A DNA stretch of 64,000 nt, from positions 3,175,022 through 3,239,021 of the forward strand of contig OY282376.1 in NCBI GenBank assembly GCA_958295845.1. Direction: 5' to 3'. Source of the DNA: Caldilineaceae bacterium (GTDB lineage Bacteria; Chloroflexota; Anaerolineae; Caldilineales; Caldilineaceae). This document shows positions 6,642-49,991 of the stretch, piece by piece (the stretch's first letter is position 1; each line of letters begins with the position of its first letter). The notes beneath the pieces were generated by a model that had not been told where the DNA came from, ran no database searches, and worked only from the letters and a program-made list of their open reading frames with translations. The position numbers and the translations under genes are program-made.

Positions 6642-7874
6642 TCAGGCTACGCGGGCCCCGCTTTCATCGTCAAAGAAGTGAAGTCCAGCATTGTCAAACT
6701 GGACCTCAACCCGCTCTCCTATCGCAATCCGCTCCCGGATATCAGCCTGACCCAGAAAACGGTGTTCCCCTGACCGGAAGCCAATGAATAGGATATGCCT
6801 GCCGTAGTCCGCTTCAACAGACTCCGCCGTCCCCAGCAATCGGTTTTCCCGCGGCGCCGGCCCGACATCCTCTGCCTCTATAGTCCCTTTGCTAACTGTT
6901 ATTCTCGCTGATTCAGCCGGAATCCCAACAGTCACCTTCTGCCCGGCCCTGAGCGCCTGCAGTTGCGAGGCCTGCGGGACGATCCGCAGACCTTGGCCTG
7001 CTTCGATCCCGCCTTCAACAACGACCGCATCATGTAGAAGACTCATCGGCGGAATCCCCAGAAAGCCGGCCACAAACGTGTTGGCGGGCTGCCGCCGGAC
7101 TTCCTCAAACGGGCCAACCTGTTCGATTCGCCCTGCCCGCATCACCGCCACCAGGTCGCCCAGGGCCATGGCCTCGGTCTGGTCGTGCGTCACGTATAGC
7201 GCTGTGATGGAGAACCGGCGCAGGAGCCGTTTGATTTCGACCCGTGTCTGCGATCGCAGCTTCGCGTCCAGGTTGGAAAGCGGCTCGTCGAAGAGAAAGA
7301 CCCGCGGCCTGCGCACGATAGCCCTTGCAATTGCGACCCGCTGCTGCTGTCCTCCCGACAAGGTGCCCGGTTTGCGCTGCAACAGGGCGTTAAAGCCTAT
7401 CCCCATGATTTCCGACGTCACGCGGATCCTTTCATCGGCCTCGGCGTCCGGCGCTTTGCGCAGGCGGAAGAAGAAAGACAGGTTGCCGTGACCTTCGAAG
7501 TGTGGGTAGAGGGCGTAATTCTGAAAGACCATCCCAATGTAGCGGTCTCCGGGCGGCACGTCCATCATGTCCTGGTCGTCGTATAGGAGCTCGCCATCGT
7601 AGTCGGCTTCCAACCCGGCAACGACGCGCAGCAAAGTACTCTTTCCACAGCCCGATGGCCCGAGCACCGCCATCGTACGCCCATCGGGGACTGTTAAGTC
7701 GACCTGGTCCAATGCCGCGACGCGACCTGGTTCCTCGTCTTCGCCTTCGCGCGGCGCCGGCCCGGAGGAGCGAAGCCAAGGAATTGCCCCGCCTCTGCCA
7801 ACCCCGCTCTGTACACTGAACTCTTTACTGACCTTGCTAAGGCGGATAGTTGCCAACCTGAATTCTACCTCCAT
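6642..7874 (-). CDS. Sugar-type ABC transporter ATP-binding protein (UgpC/MalK-like)
   Basis: About 410 residues from ATG 7874. Walker A is GPSGCGKST, signature LSGGQQQR, Walker B VFLFDEPLSNLD and switch VTHDQTEAMAL. A C-terminal TOBE-type beta domain (residues ~280-410) is characteristic of MalK/UgpC/MsmX ATPases that energise carbohydrate or phosphoester import. The reading frame opens at 7943, but homology begins at EFRLATIRLSKVSKEF, so the downstream Met is more likely. A short Pro/Glu-rich insert (residues ~25-55) sits between the first strand and Walker A. No permease or binding-protein gene is adjacent, so it probably serves importers encoded elsewhere. Confidence 0.88.
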   Translation of the reverse strand: MEVEFRLATIRLSKVSKEFSVQSGVGRGGAIPWLRSSGPAPREGEDEEPGRVAALDQVDLTVPDGRTMAVLGPSGCGKSTLLRVVAGLEADYDGELLYDDQDMMDVPPGDRYIGMVFQNYALYPHFEGHGNLSFFFRLRKAPDAEADERIRVTSEIMGIGFNALLQRKPGTLSGGQQQRVAIARAIVRRPRVFLFDEPLSNLDAKLRSQTRVEIKRLLRRFSITALYVTHDQTEAMALGDLVAVMRAGRIEQVGPFEEVRRQPANTFVAGFLGIPPMSLLHDAVVVEGGIEAGQGLRIVPQASQLQALRAGQKVTVGIPAESARITVSKGTIEAEDVGPAPRENRLLGTAESVEADYGRHILFIGFRSGEHRFLGQADIRERIAIGERVEVQFDNAGLHFFDDESGARVA

Positions 7875-8277
7875 TGTCAGGGAATCGCGGCCGAGACGTG
7901 CCACTTGGTGTCCAGGCACGGCCTGCGCCAGGAACACGCCCAACGCCCTTCACACGGCCATTCTACTAGCGAAAGCCGTTAAGAGCGAACCCCGTTTGAG
8001 GACGGAATCTTTGTCTCTTAGACTGGAGATTGGGTGAGTCCGAGACCACCCCCACGACCTGTAGCCGGCGGAACGAAATCGGGCCGACAGAGCCCGCCCT
8101 GCTCCCTCTACGTTGCGATGGCTTGAAATTGGAGTCTACGGTCTTACGGCCGTCTATGGAGTGAGGATTAAACGGCAGTATTATATACTTCATTTGCGTT
8201 GATCAAGATGATCAGTGTAACCTAAAAGTTGTGACAAAATCACAGGTAGCGTTGACGCCATAAGGGGAAGATTTTCA
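7875..8277. other. Intergenic region with small symmetric elements
   Basis: No convincing gene. Near its right end, TGATCA occurs twice (8200-8205 and 8209-8214), followed by an inverted repeat TGTGA-N5-TCACA at 8230-8244, 34 bp before the PolX-like start. These could be operator sites for the downstream operon. TATATACTT at 8182-8190 is AT-rich and could be a -10 region. No -35 box stands out. Confidence 0.3.
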
Positions 8278-39242: not shown

Positions 39243-39925
39243 GTCAACGCGGCTGCACAGCGGTTGCCGACGCGTACTGCAGCTGCCAGCCGCTTGATTC
39301 GCCCGCCGCGTTCACCGCGCGGATGGTGTAGTAGTACTTCGTCCCGGCCGTAACGCCGGTATGCCTGTAGGAGGTGCCGGTCCGGTTGGCTCCCCCGATC
39401 GACTGCCAGCCCGTCCCTGCGTCCCACCAGGCCATGAGATCGTAGCGCACCGCGCCCTGCACAGTTCCCCAACGCAGCGCCACGCCGCCCTCTGTCGCCG
39501 TCGCCGTCAGCGCCGGTGTCGAAAGTCTGGCTGCCGTTGCGGTCGGCGTCGGTGTAGCCGTTGACGTCCCGCCAGTCGGTACCTCTTGAGATGCGGTCAC
39601 AGACGGATACGCGTTCGTCCCCGCACCCAGCCAGCCGCTTGTCTCGCCGTCCCCGTTCACCGCACGGATGGTGTAGTAGTACTTCGTCCCGGCCGTAACG
39701 CCGGTGTGCGTGTAGGAGGTGCTGGTCAGGTTGGCTCCACCGAGCGACTGCCAGCCTGTGCCGGCGTCCCACCACACCATCAGCTCATAGCGCACCGCGC
39801 CCGATACGGCGTTCCAACGCAACTCGACCGCGTTCGCGCCCGCCTGCGCGGTCAGCCTTGCCGCAGATGTCGCCGATCGCGATTCGTCCGCGCCCGCCTG
39901 CCCGGATTCCGCAGTAGCTGTCGGC
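39243..39925. repeat. Long direct repeat, copy A (FnIII module pair)
   Basis: About 683 bp at constant offset 2774 from 42017-42699, with only scattered substitutions by eye. It encodes the two C-terminal FnIII domains and the linker. A third, more diverged copy covers the 3' end of the 44635-47307 gene (from about 44634 to ~45240). Such identity between neighbours indicates recent duplication or gene conversion. Confidence 0.85.
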
Positions 39926-41910
39926 GTAGACGTAGACGAAGAGGAGCATTCTCCCAGCGTGCCTGAGGGATAGCTGACGCTGCTTACGTCGTTATGAGAA
40001 GAAGGATTGGACGGGACGAATGCATGCAGCTGCGGCGGTATCGGTCCGCATAAGGCGTTGTCGGTAGCGAGCCACACCGCCGACAAGCTACCGCCCGGGG
40101 GAACCAGACTATCCAGCGAGGAGGGAATACTACCGGACAGCTGATTGTCATGGAGGAGCAGTTTCTGCAGCGCCGTCAGACTGCCCAACGAGGAGGGAAT
40201 ACTACCCGTTAGTTGATTTTTTTCGAGGATCAGAATCTGCAGCGCCGTCAGATTGCCTAGCGAGGAGGGAATACTCCCCGTCAACCCGTTGGAGGACAGG
40301 TCCAACACCGCCAGCGCCGCCAGGCTGCCCAGCGAAGACGGTACGCCTCCCGTCAGCCCACTGTTGGCGAGGGACAATGCGGCTACACGCCCACTCTCGA
40401 CTGAGATGCCGTCCCAGTTCTCTATGAGACGATCCACACGCCAGTTCAGCGCAGCAGAGCCGGCCAACTCCTCCTTGAGACCCAAAAGCGTCTCACAATC
40501 CGCCACCAGCCCGGCTGCTTCCGGGTCCGAAATCGCGGCACTGTTGGCGCATGAGAACGTCGGCGTCGAAGTTGCTGTTGGTGTCGCTGTTGGAAAGCCT
40601 GGCAGGGTATTCGTGGGCGTCGGTGTTGGTGTCGTTGTTGGCGCAGGCAGCGAGGAGCAGTCTCCCAGCGTGCCTGAGGGATAGACGGCACGTTTAACGT
40701 CGCTATGTTCAAAGGCATGCAGTTTCGGCGGTATCGGACCACACAAGTCGTTGCCGGCGGCGAGGTGCACAACGACCAACGGGCCACCCGGGCGAACCAA
40801 ATTGTCCAACGAGGACGGAATCGTACCCGTCAGTCGGTTGTGGTTGAGCAACAACTTTTCCAAGTTGGTCAGCCTGCCCAACGAGGAGGGAATACTACCG
40901 GTCAGCTGATTGTCATGGAGGGACAACACTTCCAGTTTGGTCAGCCTGCCCAACGAGGACGGAATCGTACCCGTCAATTGGTTGCGGCCGAGGGACAACA
41001 CCTTCAACCCCGCCAAGTTGCCCAACGAGGACGGAAGTGTACCCGTCATACCGGAACTCAGGGTCAAGTGCGTCACACGACCATTGCTGACGCCAACACC
41101 TGACCAGAAAAAGATACCAGTATTCACACTCCAATTCCGTGTGGTGTCGCCGAGCAATTGGTCCTTAAGAGCGAGGAGCGTCTCGCAATCGGCGACCAGA
41201 CCGTCCGAAGCCGGTGCCGGGACCGCCGTGCTGTTGGCGCAGGAGGGCGCGGACGCCGGTGTCGCTGTTGGAAGGCCGGGCGGGGTACTCGTAGGCCTTG
41301 CTGTAGGTGTCGGTGTTGCTGTAGGTGTCGGTGTTGGAAAGCCGGGCGGGTAATTCGTGGGCGTAGCTGTCAGCGTTGCCGTAGGTGTCGGTGTACCGGT
41401 CGGTGTAGCCGTCGACGGAACAGGCGTGTCGGTTGCGGTGGGGATTGCGCTCGCCGGCACGACGACAGTCAAGGTGCTCCAGCCCCCAGTCAGCTCGCCG
41501 CGGAATGCCCGTATTCTGTACTTGTAATTGCCAGCGACGACGACGTCGCTATCGGTATAACTCGTAGAGCTGCCGGAAACGAGATAGAGGCGGTTGGGGC
41601 CATACGTGCTGTGGTACGGCCACGTGCGATGAATATCATAGCCGGTCGCCCCGCCCGCGGGCGCAGACCAACTCAAGGCGATGCCGCCGGCCGTCACCCT
41701 GCCGGAGAAATTACCCGGGACTGCCGGCGGCGCCGGCGTCGCTGTGGGCGTCGCTGTTGGAAAGGCGAGCGGAGTACTCGTTGCCGTGGGCGTCGCTGTC
41801 AGCGCTTGCTGTGCCTGGACATGTCCGCCCGGCAGGAGCGGCGCGAAGAGGGTGGCGAAGAGCGCCAAGAGCAGGAAAGGCACTATACGGCTAATGGACT
41901 GCGGCTTCAT
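39244..41910 (-). CDS. Large exported protein: FnIII, two plant-like LRR blocks, two C-terminal FnIII
   Basis: 888 residues from ATG 41910 (GAGGA site upstream). Signal peptide ending near HVQAQQ, then a Thr/Pro linker and an FnIII-like domain (~65-150). A long Thr/Pro linker leads to an LRR block (~230-420), and a second LRR block occupies ~465-640. Both LRR blocks open with a cap resembling plant LRRNT_2 (ADCETLLALKDQL, ADCETLLGLKEEL) and carry LxxLxxLxLxxNxLTGSIPSSLG repeats. Two FnIII domains finish the chain (RYELMVWWDAGTGWQSLGG; KYYYTIRAVNAAGESSGW). There is no anchor, so it is probably secreted or wall-bound. The last ~680 bp are nearly identical to the next gene. Adhesion or ligand binding is likely (inference). 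Confidence 0.88.
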   Translation of the reverse strand: MKPQSISRIVPFLLLALFATLFAPLLPGGHVQAQQALTATPTATSTPLAFPTATPTATPAPPAVPGNFSGRVTAGGIALSWSAPAGGATGYDIHRTWPYHSTYGPNRLYLVSGSSTSYTDSDVVVAGNYKYRIRAFRGELTGGWSTLTVVVPASAIPTATDTPVPSTATPTGTPTPTATLTATPTNYPPGFPTPTPTATPTPTARPTSTPPGLPTATPASAPSCANSTAVPAPASDGLVADCETLLALKDQLLGDTTRNWSVNTGIFFWSGVGVSNGRVTHLTLSSGMTGTLPSSLGNLAGLKVLSLGRNQLTGTIPSSLGRLTKLEVLSLHDNQLTGSIPSSLGRLTNLEKLLLNHNRLTGTIPSSLDNLVRPGGPLVVVHLAAGNDLCGPIPPKLHAFEHSDVKRAVYPSGTLGDCSSLPAPTTTPTPTPTNTLPGFPTATPTATSTPTFSCANSAAISDPEAAGLVADCETLLGLKEELAGSAALNWRVDRLIENWDGISVESGRVAALSLANSGLTGGVPSSLGSLAALAVLDLSSNGLTGSIPSSLGNLTALQILILEKNQLTGSIPSSLGSLTALQKLLLHDNQLSGSIPSSLDSLVPPGGSLSAVWLATDNALCGPIPPQLHAFVPSNPSSHNDVSSVSYPSGTLGECSSSSTSTPTATAESGQAGADESRSATSAARLTAQAGANAVELRWNAVSGAVRYELMVWWDAGTGWQSLGGANLTSTSYTHTGVTAGTKYYYTIRAVNGDGETSGWLGAGTNAYPSVTASQEVPTGGTSTATPTPTATAARLSTPALTATATEGGVALRWGTVQGAVRYDLMAWWDAGTGWQSIGGANRTGTSYRHTGVTAGTKYYYTIRAVNAAGESSGWQLQYASATAVQPR

Positions 41911-42016
41911 GATCGGTCCTCGCAAGTGATGGGGTCAAGGAAAACATCTCACGGATCTGCACACCGCGCAGACCGCCCGGATTCACCGCGACGCCAAACC
42001 ATCCGCCCTGGAAGAC

Positions 42017-42699
42017 GTCAACGCGGCTGCACAGCGGTTGCCGACGCGTACTGCAGCTGCCAGCCGCTTGATTCGCCCGCCGCGTTCACCGCGCGGATGG
42101 TGTAGTAGTACTTCGTCCCGGCCGTAACGCCGGTATGCCTGTAGGAGGTGCCGGTCCGGTTGGCTCCCCCGATCGACTGCCAGCCCGTCCCTGCGTCCCA
42201 CCAGGCCATGAGATCGTAGCGCACCGCGCCCTGCACAGTTCCCCAACGCAGCGCCACGCCGCCCTCTGTCGCCGTCGCCGTCAGCGCCGGTGTCGAAAGC
42301 CTGGCTGCCGTTGCGGTCGGCGTCGGTGTAGCCGTTGACGTCCCGCCAGCCGGTACCTCTTGAGATGCGGTCACAGACGGATACGCGTTCGTCTCCGCAC
42401 CCAGCCAGCCGCTAGTCTCGCCGTCCGCGTTCACCGCGCGGATGGTGTAGTAGTACGTCGTCCCGGCCGTAACGCCGGTGTGCCTGTAGGAGGTGCCGGT
42501 CAGGTTGGCTCCCCCGAGCGACTGCCAGCCTGTGCCGGCGTCCCACCACACCATCAGTTCGTAGCGCACCGCGCCCGACACGGCGTTCCAACGCAACTCG
42601 ACCGCGTTCGCGCCCGCCTGCGCGGTCAGCCTTGCCGCAGATGTCGCCGATCGCGATTCGTCCGCGCCCGCCTGCCCGGATTCCGCAGTAGCTGTCGGC
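42017..42699. repeat. Long direct repeat, copy B (FnIII module pair)
   Basis: Partner of 39243-39925 at offset 2774. Identity breaks at the Thr/Pro linker, where copy A runs into an LRR block and copy B into a further FnIII domain. The breakpoint lies in repetitive linker DNA (GTCGGCGT units), a plausible recombination site. Confidence 0.85.
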
Positions 42700-43640
42700 G
42701 TCGGCGTAGCGGTTGCGGTGGGGAGTCCGCTCTCCGGCACGACGACAGTCAAGAGGTCCGACCAGGCGCTAATCAGCCCGCCGCGGAATGCCCGTATGCT
42801 GTATCTGTAATGGCCACCAGGGACGGCGACGTCGCTATCGGTATAACTTGTAGAGCTGCCGGAAACGCTATAGCTGACGATGGTGCCATCCTTGCTGCTG
42901 CGTGGCCACGAGCGATAAATAGTATAGTTGTCCGCCCCGCCCTCGGGCGCAGTCCAACTCAAATCGATGCCGTTGGCCGTCACCTTGCCGGCGAATTTAC
43001 CCGGGATTTCCGGCGGCGCCGGCGTTGCCGTAAGCGTCGCTGTTGGACGGCCGATCGGGGTACTCGTGGGCGTCGCTGTCAGCGTTGCCGTTGCCGTAGG
43101 TGTCGGTGTTGGAAAGCCGGGTGGGACACTCGTGGGCGTAGCTGTCAGCGTTGCCGTAGGTGTCGGTGTACTGGTCGGTGTAGCCGTCGACGGAACAGGC
43201 GTGCCGGTCGCGGTGGGGACTACGCTCTCCGGCACGACTACAGTCAAGGCGCCCCAGCCGCTAGTCAGCGAGCCGCGGGCTGCCTGTATTTTGTATCTGT
43301 AACTGCCAGCGACGGCGACGTCGCTATCGGTATAACTTGTAGAGCTGCCGAGAACATAGACGACGGAGGTGCCATACTTGCTGTGGCGCGGCCACGTGCG
43401 ATGAATAGTATAGCCGGTCGCCCCGCCCGCGGGCGCAGACCAACTCAAGGCGACGCCGTTGGCCTTCACCCTGCCGGAGAAGTTACCCGGGACTGCCGGC
43501 GGCGCCGGCGTTGCCGTAGGCGTCGCCGTCAGCGCTTGCTGTGCCTGGGCATGTCCGCCCGGCAGGAGCGATGCGATGAGGGCGGCGAAGAGCGCCAAGA
43601 GCGGGAAATGCGTCACACGGCTAATGGACTGTGGCTGCAT
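42018..43640 (-). CDS. Exported protein with four FnIII-like domains, paralogue of the LRR protein
   Basis: 540 residues. Signal peptide MQPQSISRVTHFPLLALFAA..., cleaved near HAQAQ. Two FnIII-like domains (~48-138 and ~212-305) are separated by Thr/Pro linkers (TATLTATPTS); two more at ~345-430 and ~455-540 share RYELMVWWDAGTGWQ and TSYRHTGVTAGTKYYYTIRAVN. The 3' ~680 bp match the neighbouring LRR gene almost base for base (42017-42699 against 39243-39925). The 5' flank with its GAGGACCGATC site is also shared, so this is a whole-gene duplication in which the LRR blocks were gained or lost. Confidence 0.87.
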   Translation of the reverse strand: MQPQSISRVTHFPLLALFAALIASLLPGGHAQAQQALTATPTATPAPPAVPGNFSGRVKANGVALSWSAPAGGATGYTIHRTWPRHSKYGTSVVYVLGSSTSYTDSDVAVAGSYRYKIQAARGSLTSGWGALTVVVPESVVPTATGTPVPSTATPTSTPTPTATLTATPTSVPPGFPTPTPTATATLTATPTSTPIGRPTATLTATPAPPEIPGKFAGKVTANGIDLSWTAPEGGADNYTIYRSWPRSSKDGTIVSYSVSGSSTSYTDSDVAVPGGHYRYSIRAFRGGLISAWSDLLTVVVPESGLPTATATPTPTATAESGQAGADESRSATSAARLTAQAGANAVELRWNAVSGAVRYELMVWWDAGTGWQSLGGANLTGTSYRHTGVTAGTTYYYTIRAVNADGETSGWLGAETNAYPSVTASQEVPAGGTSTATPTPTATAARLSTPALTATATEGGVALRWGTVQGAVRYDLMAWWDAGTGWQSIGGANRTGTSYRHTGVTAGTKYYYTIRAVNAAGESSGWQLQYASATAVQPR

Positions 43641-44634: not shown

Positions 44635-47307
44635 TCAACGCGGCTGCGCAGCGGTTGCCGACGCGTACTGCAGCAGCCAGCCGCTTGTCTCGCCGGCCGC
44701 GTTCACCGCACGGATGGTGTAGTAGTACTTCGTCCCGGCCGTAACGCCGGTGTGCGTGTAGGAGGTGCCGGTCAGGTTGGCTCCCCCGATCGACTGCCAG
44801 CCCGTCCCTGCGTCCCACCAGGCCATGAGACCGTAGCGCACCGCACCCTGCACAGTTCCCCAACGCAGCGCCACGCCGCCCTCTGTCGCCGTCGCCGTCA
44901 GCGCCGGTGTCGAAAGCCTGGCTGCAGCTGCGGTCGGCGTCGGTGTAGCCGTTGACGTCCCGCCAGCCGGTACCTCTTGAGATGCGGTCACAGACGGATA
45001 CGCGTTCGTCTCCGCACCCAGCCAGCCGCTTGTCTCGCCGGCCGCGTTCACTGCACGGATGGTGTAGTAGTACGTCGTCCCGGCCGTAACGCCGGTATGC
45101 GTGTAGGAGGTACCGGTCAGGTTGGCTCCCCCGAGCGGCTGCCAGCCTGTGCCGACGTCCCACCACACCATCAGCTCGTAGCGCACCGCACCCACCACAG
45201 TTCCCCAACTCAACGCCACGCCGCCCTCTGTCGCCTGCGCGGTCAGCGCCGGTGTCGAAAACCCGGCTGCGGTTGCGGTCACAGACGGAAACGCGTTCGT
45301 CCCCGCACCCAGCCAGCCGCTTGTCTCGCCGGCCGCGTTGACCGCACGGATGGTGTAGTAGTATTTTCTTCCGGGGGTCAGGCCGGTGTGCCTGTACGAC
45401 GTGCCTGTCAGGTTGGCTCCCCCGAGCGGCTGCCAGCCTGTGCCGGCGTCCCACCACACCATCAGTTCGTAGCGCACCGCACCCGCCACAGTTCCCCAAC
45501 TCAACGCCGCGCCGCCTTCGGTCGCCTGCGCGGTCAACGTTGGAACAGACAGCCCGGAGGCCGCAGTGGCAGCCGGCGTCTCAGTAGCAGTCGGCGTGGC
45601 AGTTGGAATAAACTGCTGGCGTGCTGCCTCACACGCAGCCAGCGTGTTGAACGGACCACGGGCATTGCCTTCACCACTTACGGTGAAAAGCCACATCCCA
45701 CTGTTGTCCTGGTAACAGGACCCGACAGGCCCGTCAGGCGGTCTCGGCGTGGAATCCAGACCAGGTGTCGCAGTGGCAGGCGGCGTCGCAGTCGGCGTGA
45801 TAGTCGGCGTAGCAGTCGCAGTGGCAGTCGGCGTCGGCGTCTCAGTAGCAGTCGGCGTGGCAGTTGGAATAAGCTGCTGGCGTGCTGCCTCACACGGAGC
45901 CAGCGTGTTGAACGGACCACGGGCATTGCCTTCACCACTTACGTTGAAAAGCCACATCCCACTGTTGTCCTGGTAACAGGACCCGACAGGCCCGTCAGGC
46001 GGTCTCGGCGTGGAATCCAGACCAGGTGTCGCAGTGGCAGTCGGCGTGATAGTCGGCGTCGCAGTCAGAGTCGGAGTGGCAGTCGGCGTCGGAGTCGGCG
46101 TGGCAGTTGGAAGACCAAGAAGCTGGTTGCGTGCTGCCTCACACGCACCCTTCGTGTTGAACGGACCACGGGCATTCAATTCACTACTTACGTTGAAATA
46201 CCACGTCCCATTTGGGTCTAGGTAACAGGACCCGGCATTCGGAGTCGGCGTAGCAGTCGGCGTGATAGTCGGAGTCGGAGTCGGCGTGAAAGTTGAAATA
46301 AGCGGCTGGCGTGCTGCCTCACACGCAGCCAGCGTGTTGAACGGACCACGTTCATTTAATTCACCACTTACGTAGAAATACCAATTCGCTCCTGAGAGGT
46401 GACAGGCCCCGACAGGCCCGACAGCCGGTCTCGGAGGGGCAGTCGCTGTGGCAGTCGGCGTGCTAGTCGGAGTCGGAGTCGGCGTGCTAGTCGGCGTGGC
46501 AGTCGGCGTGGCAGTTGGAAGAAGCGGCTGGCGTGCTGCCTCACACGCAACCAGCGTTTTGAACGGACCACGTTCATTTAATTCACCACTTACGTAGAAA
46601 TACCAATTCGCTCCTGAGAGGTGACAGGCCCCGACAGGCCCGACAGCCGGTCTCGGAGGGGCAGTCGCTGTGGCAGTCGGCGTCGGCGTCGCAGTCAGAG
46701 TCGGAGTGGCGTTTGGAATAAGCTGCAGGCGTGCTGCCTCACACGCAGCCTGCGTGTTGAACGGACCACGGTCACCGCCACCACTTACGGGGAAATACCA
46801 ACTCCCTCCTGAGAGGTAACAGGACCCGATAGTCACCGTCGGCGTGGGAGTCACCGTGGCAGTCGGCGTGGCAGTTGGAATAAGCTTCTGGCGTGCTGCA
46901 TCACACGCAGCCAGCGTGTTGAACGGACCACGGGCATTCAATTCACTACTTACGTTGAAATACCACTTCTTTACTACTGGGTCCTGGTAACAGGACCCGA
47001 CAGTCGGTCTCGGAGTGGCAGTTGCTGTGGCAGTCGCTGTGGCAGTCGGCGTGATTGTCGGCGTGGCAGTTGTAATAACCAGCTGGCGTGCTGCCTCACA
47101 CTCAGCCTTCGTGTCGAACGGACCATGGATAATGATACTTACATTGAACCACCACTTCCCGTTTACGTAGTCACAGGCCCCGGGAGTTGTTTGTCGAGCC
47201 GCAGCGGGTTGTTGTTGAGCCGCAGCGGGCGCGCTGGTGAGTGTGGCGGTAATCACGCAGAAAGCCAGAATGACCATGAAAATTGCAACTGTCTTTATCC
47301 GTTTCAT
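44635..47307 (-). CDS. Large exported protein: eight copies of a two-Cys module plus three FnIII
   Basis: 890 residues. ATG 47307 has a perfect AAGGAGGT site. Signal peptide (VAIFMVILAFCVITATLTSA) cleaved after PAAAQ. Residues ~40-610 hold eight modules of ~36 residues, consensus G-S-C-Y-x(5)-W-Y-F-x-V-S-x-E-x-N-x-R-G-P-F-x-T-x-x-A-C-E-A-A-R-x-x-L-I, joined by Thr/Pro linkers. The two Cys per module probably form a disulfide. Three FnIII domains follow (~615-890), the last two almost identical to those of the two downstream paralogues. I recognise no family for the Cys module. A secreted or wall-associated binding protein is likely. Confidence 0.88.
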   Translation of the reverse strand: MKRIKTVAIFMVILAFCVITATLTSAPAAAQQQPAAARQTTPGACDYVNGKWWFNVSIIIHGPFDTKAECEAARQLVITTATPTITPTATATATATATPRPTVGSCYQDPVVKKWYFNVSSELNARGPFNTLAACDAARQKLIPTATPTATVTPTPTVTIGSCYLSGGSWYFPVSGGGDRGPFNTQAACEAARLQLIPNATPTLTATPTPTATATAPPRPAVGPVGACHLSGANWYFYVSGELNERGPFKTLVACEAARQPLLPTATPTATPTSTPTPTPTSTPTATATAPPRPAVGPVGACHLSGANWYFYVSGELNERGPFNTLAACEAARQPLISTFTPTPTPTITPTATPTPNAGSCYLDPNGTWYFNVSSELNARGPFNTKGACEAARNQLLGLPTATPTPTPTATPTLTATPTITPTATATPGLDSTPRPPDGPVGSCYQDNSGMWLFNVSGEGNARGPFNTLAPCEAARQQLIPTATPTATETPTPTATATATPTITPTATPPATATPGLDSTPRPPDGPVGSCYQDNSGMWLFTVSGEGNARGPFNTLAACEAARQQFIPTATPTATETPAATAASGLSVPTLTAQATEGGAALSWGTVAGAVRYELMVWWDAGTGWQPLGGANLTGTSYRHTGLTPGRKYYYTIRAVNAAGETSGWLGAGTNAFPSVTATAAGFSTPALTAQATEGGVALSWGTVVGAVRYELMVWWDVGTGWQPLGGANLTGTSYTHTGVTAGTTYYYTIRAVNAAGETSGWLGAETNAYPSVTASQEVPAGGTSTATPTPTAAAARLSTPALTATATEGGVALRWGTVQGAVRYGLMAWWDAGTGWQSIGGANLTGTSYTHTGVTAGTKYYYTIRAVNAAGETSGWLLQYASATAAQPR

Positions 47308-47594: not shown

Positions 47595-49991
47595 ATGGAG
47601 CGAGATAACGAGAAGGGAGAGAACGAGAGGCTGCGAGAGCGCCTGTCCATCCTGTCGGAGGCCTGTCTCCGCATCAACGAGACCCTGGACCTGGAGACGG
47701 TGCTACAGGATGTCGTCGATAGCGCCCGCATCATCACCGGGTCTCGCTACGCAGGCATCAGCACCTTCGACAGCTGGGGGCAGGGCCTGGAGTTCCTGAC
47801 CTCCGGCATGAGTCTGGAGGCGAAGACATGGCTGGCGGACATGCCGGAGGGCCCGGCCTTCTTCGAGTATCTCCTGTCGCTGACCGAGCCGTTACGGATA
47901 GGAGACTTCCAGAGTCATATCAGAGAGCTGGGTATGCCCTATTTCAACCCGCCTGTGCCGGTGACCTCCGTCCTGGCGACGTCGCTGCGCGCGCGGGGCG
48001 AGACGGTCGGCGTCATCTACCTTTCCAAGGGTGAAGGCGGCCAGGAGTTCACCCCCGAGGACGAAGAAACACTGGTCATGTTCGCCTCCCAGGCCGCGCT
48101 GGTCATCGCCAACGCCCGCAGGCACCGGGAGGAACAGCGGGTCAGGGCCGACCTGGAGACGCTGGTAAACACCGTTCCTGTGGGCGTGGCGGTGTTCGAC
48201 GCGACGACCGGGGGCGTGGTGTCCACCAACCGGGAAATGAGAAGAATCGCCAGCGGCCTGCACGGGCCGGAGGGCTCCATGGAGGAGCTCCTCCATGGAG
48301 TGACCTTCCGGCGGGGCGACGGCAGGGAGATTTCACTGAAAGAGTCCTCGCTCCCGGAGTTGCTGCGCATCGGGGAGACGGTGCGGGCCGAGGAGATCAT
48401 CCTGCGGGCCCCCGACGGACGGTCCATCACCACGCTTATGAACTCCACCCCCATAAGGTCGGAAGAGGGAGAAGTGGAGTCGGTGGTGGTCACCCTGCAG
48501 GACATGACGCCGCTGGAAGATCTGGAGCGGCTGCGAGCCGAGTTCCTGGCCATGGTGAGCCACGAGCTCCGTACCCCGCTGACCGCTATCAGGGGCTCCG
48601 CCACCGCCCTGATGGACGACTCTTCCGGGCTGCATCCCGTCGAGATGCGCCAGTTCTTCCAGATCATCCTGGACCAGACCGACCGGATGCGAGGACTGAT
48701 CGCCGACCTTCTGGATGTGGCGCGCATCGAGACGGGCACGCTGTCGGTATCCCCCGAACCTACCGACTTGACGGCCCTGATGGATGACGTCAGGACCACG
48801 TTCCTGAGCGGCGGACACAAGCACAGTCTGCAGGTCGACCTCGTGTCGGGTCTGCCCTGGGTCATGGCGGACCGTTTTCGCATTGTCCAGGTTCTGGGAA
48901 ATCTGCTCACCAATGCGGCCAAGCGCTCGCCGGAATCCTCGTCCATCAGGGTGACCGCGGCGTTGGGGGAATTTCAGGTCGCGGTTTCCGTATCCGATGA
49001 CGGCCAGGGAATCCCGGCGGAAAGTCTGCCGAACCTGTTCCGGAAATTCTTCCGCATCGCCACCGAGGAACAGGGTGGCGACACCGGCCTGGGCCTTGCC
49101 GTCTGCAAGGGCATCGTCGAGGCGCACGGGGGGCGCATCTGGGCCGAGAGCGACGGTCCAGGGCTTGGCGCACGCTTCACCTTCACGCTTCCGCTTGTCG
49201 AGGACTCCGGTTTCGTGTCTCCCTTCGTGTCTCCACGGCCACGGGCCGCCACCGGCATCACCCACCAGAATACGGGGGAACAGGTGCGGATCCTGGCGGT
49301 GGACGATGAACCCCAGGCGCTCAGATACATCAAAGACGTCCTTGTCAAGGCGGGCTACGTCGCCATTGCCACAAGCGACCCCAAGGAGGTCCCTTGGCTC
49401 CTGCAGGAACACAAGCCACATCTCGTCCTGTTGGACTTGATGCTGCCGGGGGTCAACGGCATCGATCTGATGGGTGACATCGTGGAGAAGAGAGACGTGC
49501 CGGTGATCTTCGTTTCGGCCTACGGCCAGGACCAGTTGATCGCACGGGCCTTCGACATGGGGGCGGCGGACTACGTCGTCAAACCCTTCTCAATAACCGA
49601 ACTCGTGGCCAGGATCAAGGCAGCCCTCCGCAGGAGGGAGACCGCTGAGCCGACAGTGCCCTATGCCGTCGGCGACCTCGTCATCGATTATGCAGAACGC
49701 CTCGTGACCCTGGCAGGTAAGCCGGTGGCGGTGACCGCCATCCAGTACAATTTGCTGCTGGCGCTTTCGACGAACGCGGGGCGTGTGCAAACCTACGCGC
49801 AACTGCTGCAGCAGGTCTGGGACGATGACGCAGACGGGGACGTGAGGCCGATGCGTACCGCAATAAGCGCCCTCCGGCGCATGCTGGGGGACGACGCCAC
49901 TAACCCTAACTACATCTTCACCGAGCCCCGTGTCGGCTACAAGATGCCCGGACCTGAAGGGTTGGACCCGGGATTGACCGGGAGCCGCTGA
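47595..49991 (+). CDS. One-protein two-component system: GAF-PAS-histidine kinase-receiver-OmpR DNA-binding
   Basis: 798 residues. GAF domain (~25-175), PAS-like domain (~185-305), HisKA with phospho-acceptor His323 in MVSHELRTPL, and HATPase_c (N box NLLTNAAKRSP, G boxes DDGQGIP and GDTGLGLAVCKGI). A receiver (~565-680) follows, with DDE acidic pocket, LVLLDLMLPG phospho-Asp and VVKPFS lysine. The C-terminal winged helix (~695-790; MRTAISALRRMLG, YIFTEPRVGYKM) is of the OmpR/PhoB type. No TM helix, so it is a cytoplasmic sensor. Sensor, kinase, receiver and DNA-binding output in one chain is rare. ATG 47595 follows GAGGAGGAAAG. It may regulate the divergent exported-protein gene (inference). 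Confidence 0.93.
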   Translation: MERDNEKGENERLRERLSILSEACLRINETLDLETVLQDVVDSARIITGSRYAGISTFDSWGQGLEFLTSGMSLEAKTWLADMPEGPAFFEYLLSLTEPLRIGDFQSHIRELGMPYFNPPVPVTSVLATSLRARGETVGVIYLSKGEGGQEFTPEDEETLVMFASQAALVIANARRHREEQRVRADLETLVNTVPVGVAVFDATTGGVVSTNREMRRIASGLHGPEGSMEELLHGVTFRRGDGREISLKESSLPELLRIGETVRAEEIILRAPDGRSITTLMNSTPIRSEEGEVESVVVTLQDMTPLEDLERLRAEFLAMVSHELRTPLTAIRGSATALMDDSSGLHPVEMRQFFQIILDQTDRMRGLIADLLDVARIETGTLSVSPEPTDLTALMDDVRTTFLSGGHKHSLQVDLVSGLPWVMADRFRIVQVLGNLLTNAAKRSPESSSIRVTAALGEFQVAVSVSDDGQGIPAESLPNLFRKFFRIATEEQGGDTGLGLAVCKGIVEAHGGRIWAESDGPGLGARFTFTLPLVEDSGFVSPFVSPRPRAATGITHQNTGEQVRILAVDDEPQALRYIKDVLVKAGYVAIATSDPKEVPWLLQEHKPHLVLLDLMLPGVNGIDLMGDIVEKRDVPVIFVSAYGQDQLIARAFDMGAADYVVKPFSITELVARIKAALRRRETAEPTVPYAVGDLVIDYAERLVTLAGKPVAVTAIQYNLLLALSTNAGRVQTYAQLLQQVWDDDADGDVRPMRTAISALRRMLGDDATNPNYIFTEPRVGYKMPGPEGLDPGLTGSR

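Follow-up and report, generated by a model that had tools for sequence, protein, structure and literature searches.

A two-cysteine module repeated in an exported Caldilineaceae protein, with distant kinship to DUF6316 and an excess of nonsynonymous change between its copies

The gene at 44635..47307 on the reverse strand of the window (the 64,000-nucleotide stretch of Caldilineaceae bacterium contig OY282376.1 that was analysed) encodes an 890-amino-acid protein in which a small module with two cysteines occurs eight times, ahead of three Fn3 domains. The module was found in one genus, is modelled as a beta-beta-beta-alpha fold, and its copies have accumulated more nonsynonymous relative to synonymous change than the Fn3 repeats of the same protein. 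We tentatively favour the explanation that it is a disulfide-stapled scaffold, the exposed face of which is diversifying, within a multivalent secreted or surface binding protein whose ligand and anchoring, like the disulfide itself, are presumed.

The repeated module, its protein and its predicted fold

The open reading frame is exact from its ATG, and the span which the initial annotation gave to the repeat is that of the whole gene, Fn3 domains included. Amino acids 1-30 (47218..47307, reverse strand) read as a predicted Sec signal peptide with a probable cleavage site between MKRIKTVAIFMVILAFCVITATLTSAPAAA and Q, and the leader pattern ...APAAAQ is also present in relatives. The LAFC within the signal peptide differs from a standard lipobox, and reading the protein sequence revealed neither a sortase motif nor a transmembrane anchor or lipobox. 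The modules follow, all on the reverse strand: module 1 (aa 43-76, 47080..47181, 78.3 bits against the module profile, the most divergent copy), module 2 (aa 104-142, 46882..46998, 95.1 bits), module 3 (aa 161-196, 46720..46827, 85.5 bits), module 4 (aa 226-262, 46522..46632, 89.3 bits), module 5 (aa 300-336, 46300..46410, 93.4 bits, a near-duplicate of module 4), module 6 (aa 359-396, 46120..46233, 92.2 bits), module 7 (aa 442-479, 45871..45984, 93.2 bits) and module 8 (aa 529-566, 45610..45723, 91.9 bits, a near-duplicate of module 7). The linkers between them consist of Thr, Pro and Ala, and the three Fn3 domains (approximately aa 588-664, 685-761 and 800-876, within 44680..45546 on the reverse strand) were recognised by PF00041 in three stretches (E = 4e-15, boundaries approximate). 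All 16 cysteines of the mature protein lie inside the modules, two in each, with the remaining cysteine (residue 17) belonging to the signal peptide; this agrees with the paired cysteines in an exported protein that had been proposed from the first reading, export being read from the sequence.

A profile made from the eight copies, and then scored on those same copies in a six-frame search of the whole genome, gave each of them 78-95 bits (E = 2e-21 to 1e-26), values which exclude chance as the origin of the repeat, and beyond these copies there was nothing below E = 0.69 in the 5.4-Mb genome. The eight copies of about 36 residues with two cysteines and Thr/Pro linkers, as first described, are thus borne out, and the module occurs independently in eight other genomes of the genus too. 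The motif described as invariant was right in outline, with columns G, C, W, F, V, S, G, P, F, T, C, A, A and R shared by all eight copies, but copies 1, 2 and 7 depart from its details (GACD, WWF, HGPF and ECEAAR in copy 1, an end in CDAAR in copy 2 and PCEAAR in copy 7). When 19 diverse modules are compared, the invariant residues are reduced to C, G, C and R, while W, F and P are kept in at least 90%. An inverted repeat, TGAACG...CGTTCA, followed by T-rich sequence on the forward strand, lies within modules 4 and 5 (46560-46576 and 46338-46354, in the RGPF region); it resembles a terminator and is probably a by-product of the module repetition.

Structure prediction for one module, which the initial annotation had put forward as a check, gave a confident beta-beta-beta-alpha model: AlphaFold2, run on module 3 with the 19 diverse modules, placed strands at residues 6-8, 11-16 and 20-25 and a helix at 28-38 (mean pLDDT 95.5). 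The fold, as given by this one predictor, would have W-x-F-x-V as strand 2, the GP[FY] turn on strand 3 and CExAR in the helix, with Cys 5 at the opening of strand 1 and Cys 31 within the helix. Both cysteines are kept in 19/19 diverse modules, and hence a single disulfide per module, from the first cysteine to the helix cysteine and stapling the sheet to the helix, is most likely. A Foldseek search of the PDB found no similar solved structure (best E = 1.2), and matches to small viral proteins in BFVD, with TM scores up to 0.85 but E of at least 0.08, were not significant and are suggestive only.

Distribution of the module and its neighbouring genes

The module is present in 9 of the 17 genomes of one Caldilineaceae genus, the window's own genome counted, and absent from 29 other genomes of the family. 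Outside the genus, only two weak matches (L036 and L100) came from the 400 genomes surveyed for the phylum and the 396 surveyed for the class, and both proved, when read, to be chance matches in short or antisense frames. Scanning viral contigs with module-like patterns found nothing, and phages and plasmids yielded no convincing module of the cysteine type. In relatives the module stands once or twice on the N-terminal side of an exported protein, followed by Thr/Pro linkers and then by either Fn3 domains or a different two-cysteine domain (CLPNHAGRPLAICPNG...). Genome G010 (L032, MPML01000026, Caldilineaceae bin5) holds the closest ortholog, which combines six modules with three Fn3 domains and has as neighbours the kinase gene and the LRR/Fn3 gene also present at the window locus. 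The bin MPML00000000 comes from a symbiont of the sponge Aplysina aerophoba (PMC5649159), and at least one member of the genus, the MPML01 bin5, is therefore an inhabitant of a sponge.

A second two-cysteine domain (CLPNHAGRPLAICPNGxVYLFGAPSYEM...SSYADGKPYVFILRGDEVE), also undescribed, ends most of the single-module relatives in one or two copies, and was seen at the C-terminal ends of L018, L020, L021, L023, L025, L028 and L053. It had no Pfam match, and its AlphaFold2 model, seven-stranded and all-beta (pLDDT 75.6), had no significant match in the PDB. A 73-amino-acid "stand-alone" module in G006 (L022) was discounted as free-standing, being a frameshifted copy of a longer protein: in that genome a frameshift directly behind the module breaks the single-module protein in two (L082 at about 7554-8132, and L022), whilst the copy in G003 (L023, 218 aa) is intact. 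The frameshift may be real or an assembly error.

Two further exported proteins are encoded beside the module gene on the reverse strand, a 540-amino-acid Fn3 protein (42018..43640, PF00041) in which the Fn3 region is 88% identical to the C-terminal repeats of the module protein, and an 893-amino-acid protein of LRR and Fn3 domains (39244..41925, PF00560/PF13855/PF00041) which is syntenic in G010. The C-terminal Fn3 repeats of these three adjoining proteins (39244-41925, 42018-43640 and, for the module gene, 44635-45546) are 85-88% identical and end in a common tail, ...ATAxQPR. The Fn3 region has 66 matches in the genome at E = 1e-5, many of them in open reading frames of 1000-2300 amino acids. 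On the forward strand, and divergent from the module gene, lies a gene for a GAF-PAS-HisKA-HATPase-receiver-OmpR winged-helix protein (47595..49991), kept in G010 at 96.7% identity; this one-protein two-component system is a candidate regulator.

Codon changes between copies and the possible role of the module

The eight copies are near-identical at synonymous sites, yet their amino acids differ. Changes were counted as the minimum per codon column, a count which is robust to recombination between repeats, and the main count used the 27 module codons that align without gaps. At these codons the nonsynonymous changes among modules 2-8 number at least 21, with 0 synonymous ones where neutrality predicts about 5 (P = 0.004); the G010 copies gave 16 nonsynonymous to 0 synonymous (P = 0.014 versus neutrality), and both genomes together, minus the divergent module 1 of the window's own genome (G000), gave 27 to 0 (P = 8e-4). 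The Fn3 repeats of the same protein, which provide an internal control, gave 16 nonsynonymous to 21 synonymous changes (dN/dS approximately 0.3), and the difference from modules 2-8 (21:0) was significant (Fisher P = 7e-6). As a further yardstick, the kinase gene compared between the two genomes showed ordinary constraint (dS 0.05, dN/dS 0.31). With the loops included, where the alignment is uncertain, the counts were 43 to 8 for modules 2-8 (P = 8e-5 versus Fn3 at 16 to 21) and 75 to 11 for all 14 copies (P = 8e-8 versus Fn3); on the same uncertain alignment the departure from strict neutrality is weaker than at the 27 codons, with P = 0.12 for modules 2-8, P = 0.06 for all eight copies of G000 and P = 0.008 for all 14. 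Leaving out one module at a time kept P at or below 0.018, except for the omission of G010 module 1 (P = 0.10). The test covers one gene in two genomes, the sole source of enough near-identical copies. A signature of diversifying selection acting from repeat to repeat, with its control inside one protein, is uncommon in bacteria.

Two possible causes of the frozen third positions were rejected. Codon bias is contradicted by the same residue keeping different codons according to its position (GGG/GGT, TAC/TAT, GCT/GCG/GCA), and antisense coding by the extent of the forward-strand open reading frame at 44977-46221, which spans no modules but those at its end of the array; with both position 1 and position 2 of the sense codons varying, it would appear that no antisense frame is protected. 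A mutator such as a diversity-generating retroelement, producing the variation without selection, could look plausible in that variation is greater at the first and second codon positions than at the third, as if targeted. However, at 9 of the 22 variable sites none of the variants is A, which speaks against adenine-specific mutagenesis, no template copy of the module was found in the 5.4-Mb genome below E = 0.69, and eight separate copies are affected, so that a retroelement was rejected and a mutator of any kind is highly improbable.

The main rival to diversifying selection is that the modules are rigid beads of a passive stalk, which only extend and space the Fn3 domains, and that the differences between them come from relaxed constraint on a repeat amplified not long ago. 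The tandem arrangement with low-complexity linkers, a copy number that varies between the genomes (eight versus six), near-identical pairs (4/5 and 7/8) pointing to recent duplication and conserved columns that look structural are all consistent with this, as is the lack of a significant departure from neutrality in G000 alone when loops are included (P = 0.06-0.12). Relaxation, however, predicts a dN/dS near 1, against the 21:0 and 27:0 of the alignable codons, and a role as a stalk makes little sense for the single-module proteins with a different C-terminal domain. We regard the passive stalk as rather unlikely, though the most serious competitor.

The residues that are fixed or nearly fixed are C5, W12, F14, V16, G23, P24, F25, C31 and R35, and along strand 2 they alternate with variable ones, positions 12, 14 and 16 being fixed and 13 and 15 variable; further variable positions lie at the start and end of the helix and in the loops. 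Such a distribution is what a conserved core and a variable, presumably exposed, outer face would give. Position 13 holds Y, L, W, R, F, V or H across the modules, and this bears on the suggestion that the module binds carbohydrate in a secreted polysaccharide-binding or degrading system. A small cysteine-containing domain with a Thr/Pro linker and Fn3 does resemble the architecture of cellulases, and the NCBIfam exoglucanase CbhB gave a partial match over aa 557-785. Carbohydrate-binding faces usually keep an aromatic platform, however, and here the outward aromatic position varies; the CbhB match is confined essentially to Fn3 and linker, on which ground the reading of the protein as a CBM or glucanase from that match was rejected, no CBM family matched, and a Pfam search of the whole protein showed that a catalytic domain is absent. 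Carbohydrate binding is thus an unlikely function.

Diversifying selection on a binding face remains our preferred, if tentative, reading. On this view the module is an exported beta-beta-beta-alpha domain, small at about 36-40 residues and distantly akin to DUF6316; strung on flexible Thr/Pro linkers, eight of them ahead of the Fn3 domains would make a long multivalent protein, secreted or at the surface. The scaffold would be held constant while outward residues (13 and 15 of strand 2), the helix start and the loops diversify under positive selection, and the variable face would then bind one or more variable partners. Such a partner might plausibly be on the sponge host or be another member of the sponge community, a proposal which arises because the genus has a sponge symbiont and LRR/Fn3 genes adjoin the module gene; LRR proteins are among those proposed as mediators of contact between host and symbiont (PMC6306507). 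The fuller proposal, that a genus-specific disulfide-stapled mini-scaffold, its face diversified copy by copy, acts in sponge-symbiotic Chloroflexota as a multivalent protein for recognising the host or rival microbes, is more doubtful. If the exposed face does bind something in the sponge, it would put a concrete, testable molecule to host-symbiont recognition in a group of bacteria that is both abundant and uncultured. The module is also a scaffold of about 38 residues, probably held by a disulfide, that tolerates surface change. To the repeat as the initial annotation described it, the analysis adds a model of its fold, a named if distant relative, the range of taxa in which it is known, evidence for diversifying selection and, as a proposal, a function.

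Comparison with known families

A minimised Kunitz-like protease inhibitor was considered on account of the likeness between the module pattern, GPC....WYF...GPFxTxxxC, and that of Kunitz domains, GPC......WYF...NNFxTxxxC. The F-x5-C spacing at the module helix agrees with Kunitz, and among PDB sequences the best match was to amyloid precursor protein, in its Kunitz-type fragment (6gfi_E, E = 0.1, 18 residues). That match from the PDB profile search is not significant, however, and homology was rejected on it; the module has only two of the six Kunitz cysteines, which would need a different pairing, its model has three strands in place of a hairpin, it lacks the second half of the fold, and no Kunitz structure appeared in the Foldseek list. 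An inhibitor of this kind is very unlikely.

GYF_2 (PF14237, DUF4339) has in common with the module a W...GP[FY] hairpin followed by a helix, and one module from a relative matched it at E = 0.0013; membership was rejected, as the match reached 18.9 of the 25.8 bits of the cut-off and covered the first half of the model only (positions 1-27 of 50), the hhalign alignment spanned 17 columns and the aligned GYF_2 members have no conserved cysteines. DUF1508 (PF07411, YegP), of which one phage protein was among the insignificant Foldseek matches, has the order strand-strand-strand-helix, as does the module model, but it has neither the GPF nor conserved cysteines, and membership was rejected by profile comparison (8 columns, probability 2%). 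Nor is the module one of the catalogued eukaryotic-like repeats (ANK, TPR, LRR) of sponge symbionts. It is like the exported Fn3/LRR eukaryotic-like proteins of those bacteria (PMC6306507) in that an exported modular protein is encoded beside LRR and Fn3 genes, and the comparison also draws on the genus including a sponge symbiont.

The closest named family is DUF6316 (PF19837), which comprises short proteobacterial proteins of unknown function and which no paper in the literature available to the search names. The Pfam model matched the whole protein at 37.9 bits (E = 1.5e-9, cut-off 28.5), passing only by the summed copies, as single modules scored 12-14 bits (best 14.0) and a genome scan with the model gave 11.6 bits at the module gene. 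No Pfam or NCBIfam model reached its cut-off on single modules. The proposal that the domain is undescribed, which a profile match to a known domain would have overturned, therefore holds for the single module and is tempered by this distant kinship at the level of the whole protein. Comparison by hhalign of the 19 modules with three sequences of DUF6316 type (from a Marinobacter plasmid, a Pseudomonas phage record and a viral contig) aligned 30 columns (P = 4.7e-6) with a score of 28.3, against a mean of 7.7 and a maximum of 13.8 for column shuffles, 0 of 100 of which were as good. One of the queries used to find members was a hand-written consensus, which scores 74.8 bits against Pfam DUF6316 and was not used as evidence.

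What the 30 columns have in common is a core of W-[YF]-F ... GP[FY]-x-[ST] ... helix. The three DUF6316 members that were read are single-copy, with neither a cysteine pair nor a signal peptide, whereas the modules have the cysteine pair and are exported and repeated; conversely, the N-terminal R-[ST]-x-R and the TRE of DUF6316, of which both R residues and TRE are invariant in the three members, are absent from all modules. As these members are without the cysteines, the module would be a distinct relative of disulfide type. Judged by these sequence comparisons it is best described as a distant, cysteine-containing, exported relative of DUF6316, and not a member by the per-domain test, so that "undescribed cysteine-containing relative of DUF6316" appears more accurate than "unrelated to anything". 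As a candidate new domain family, the module could lend structural meaning to DUF6316 itself.
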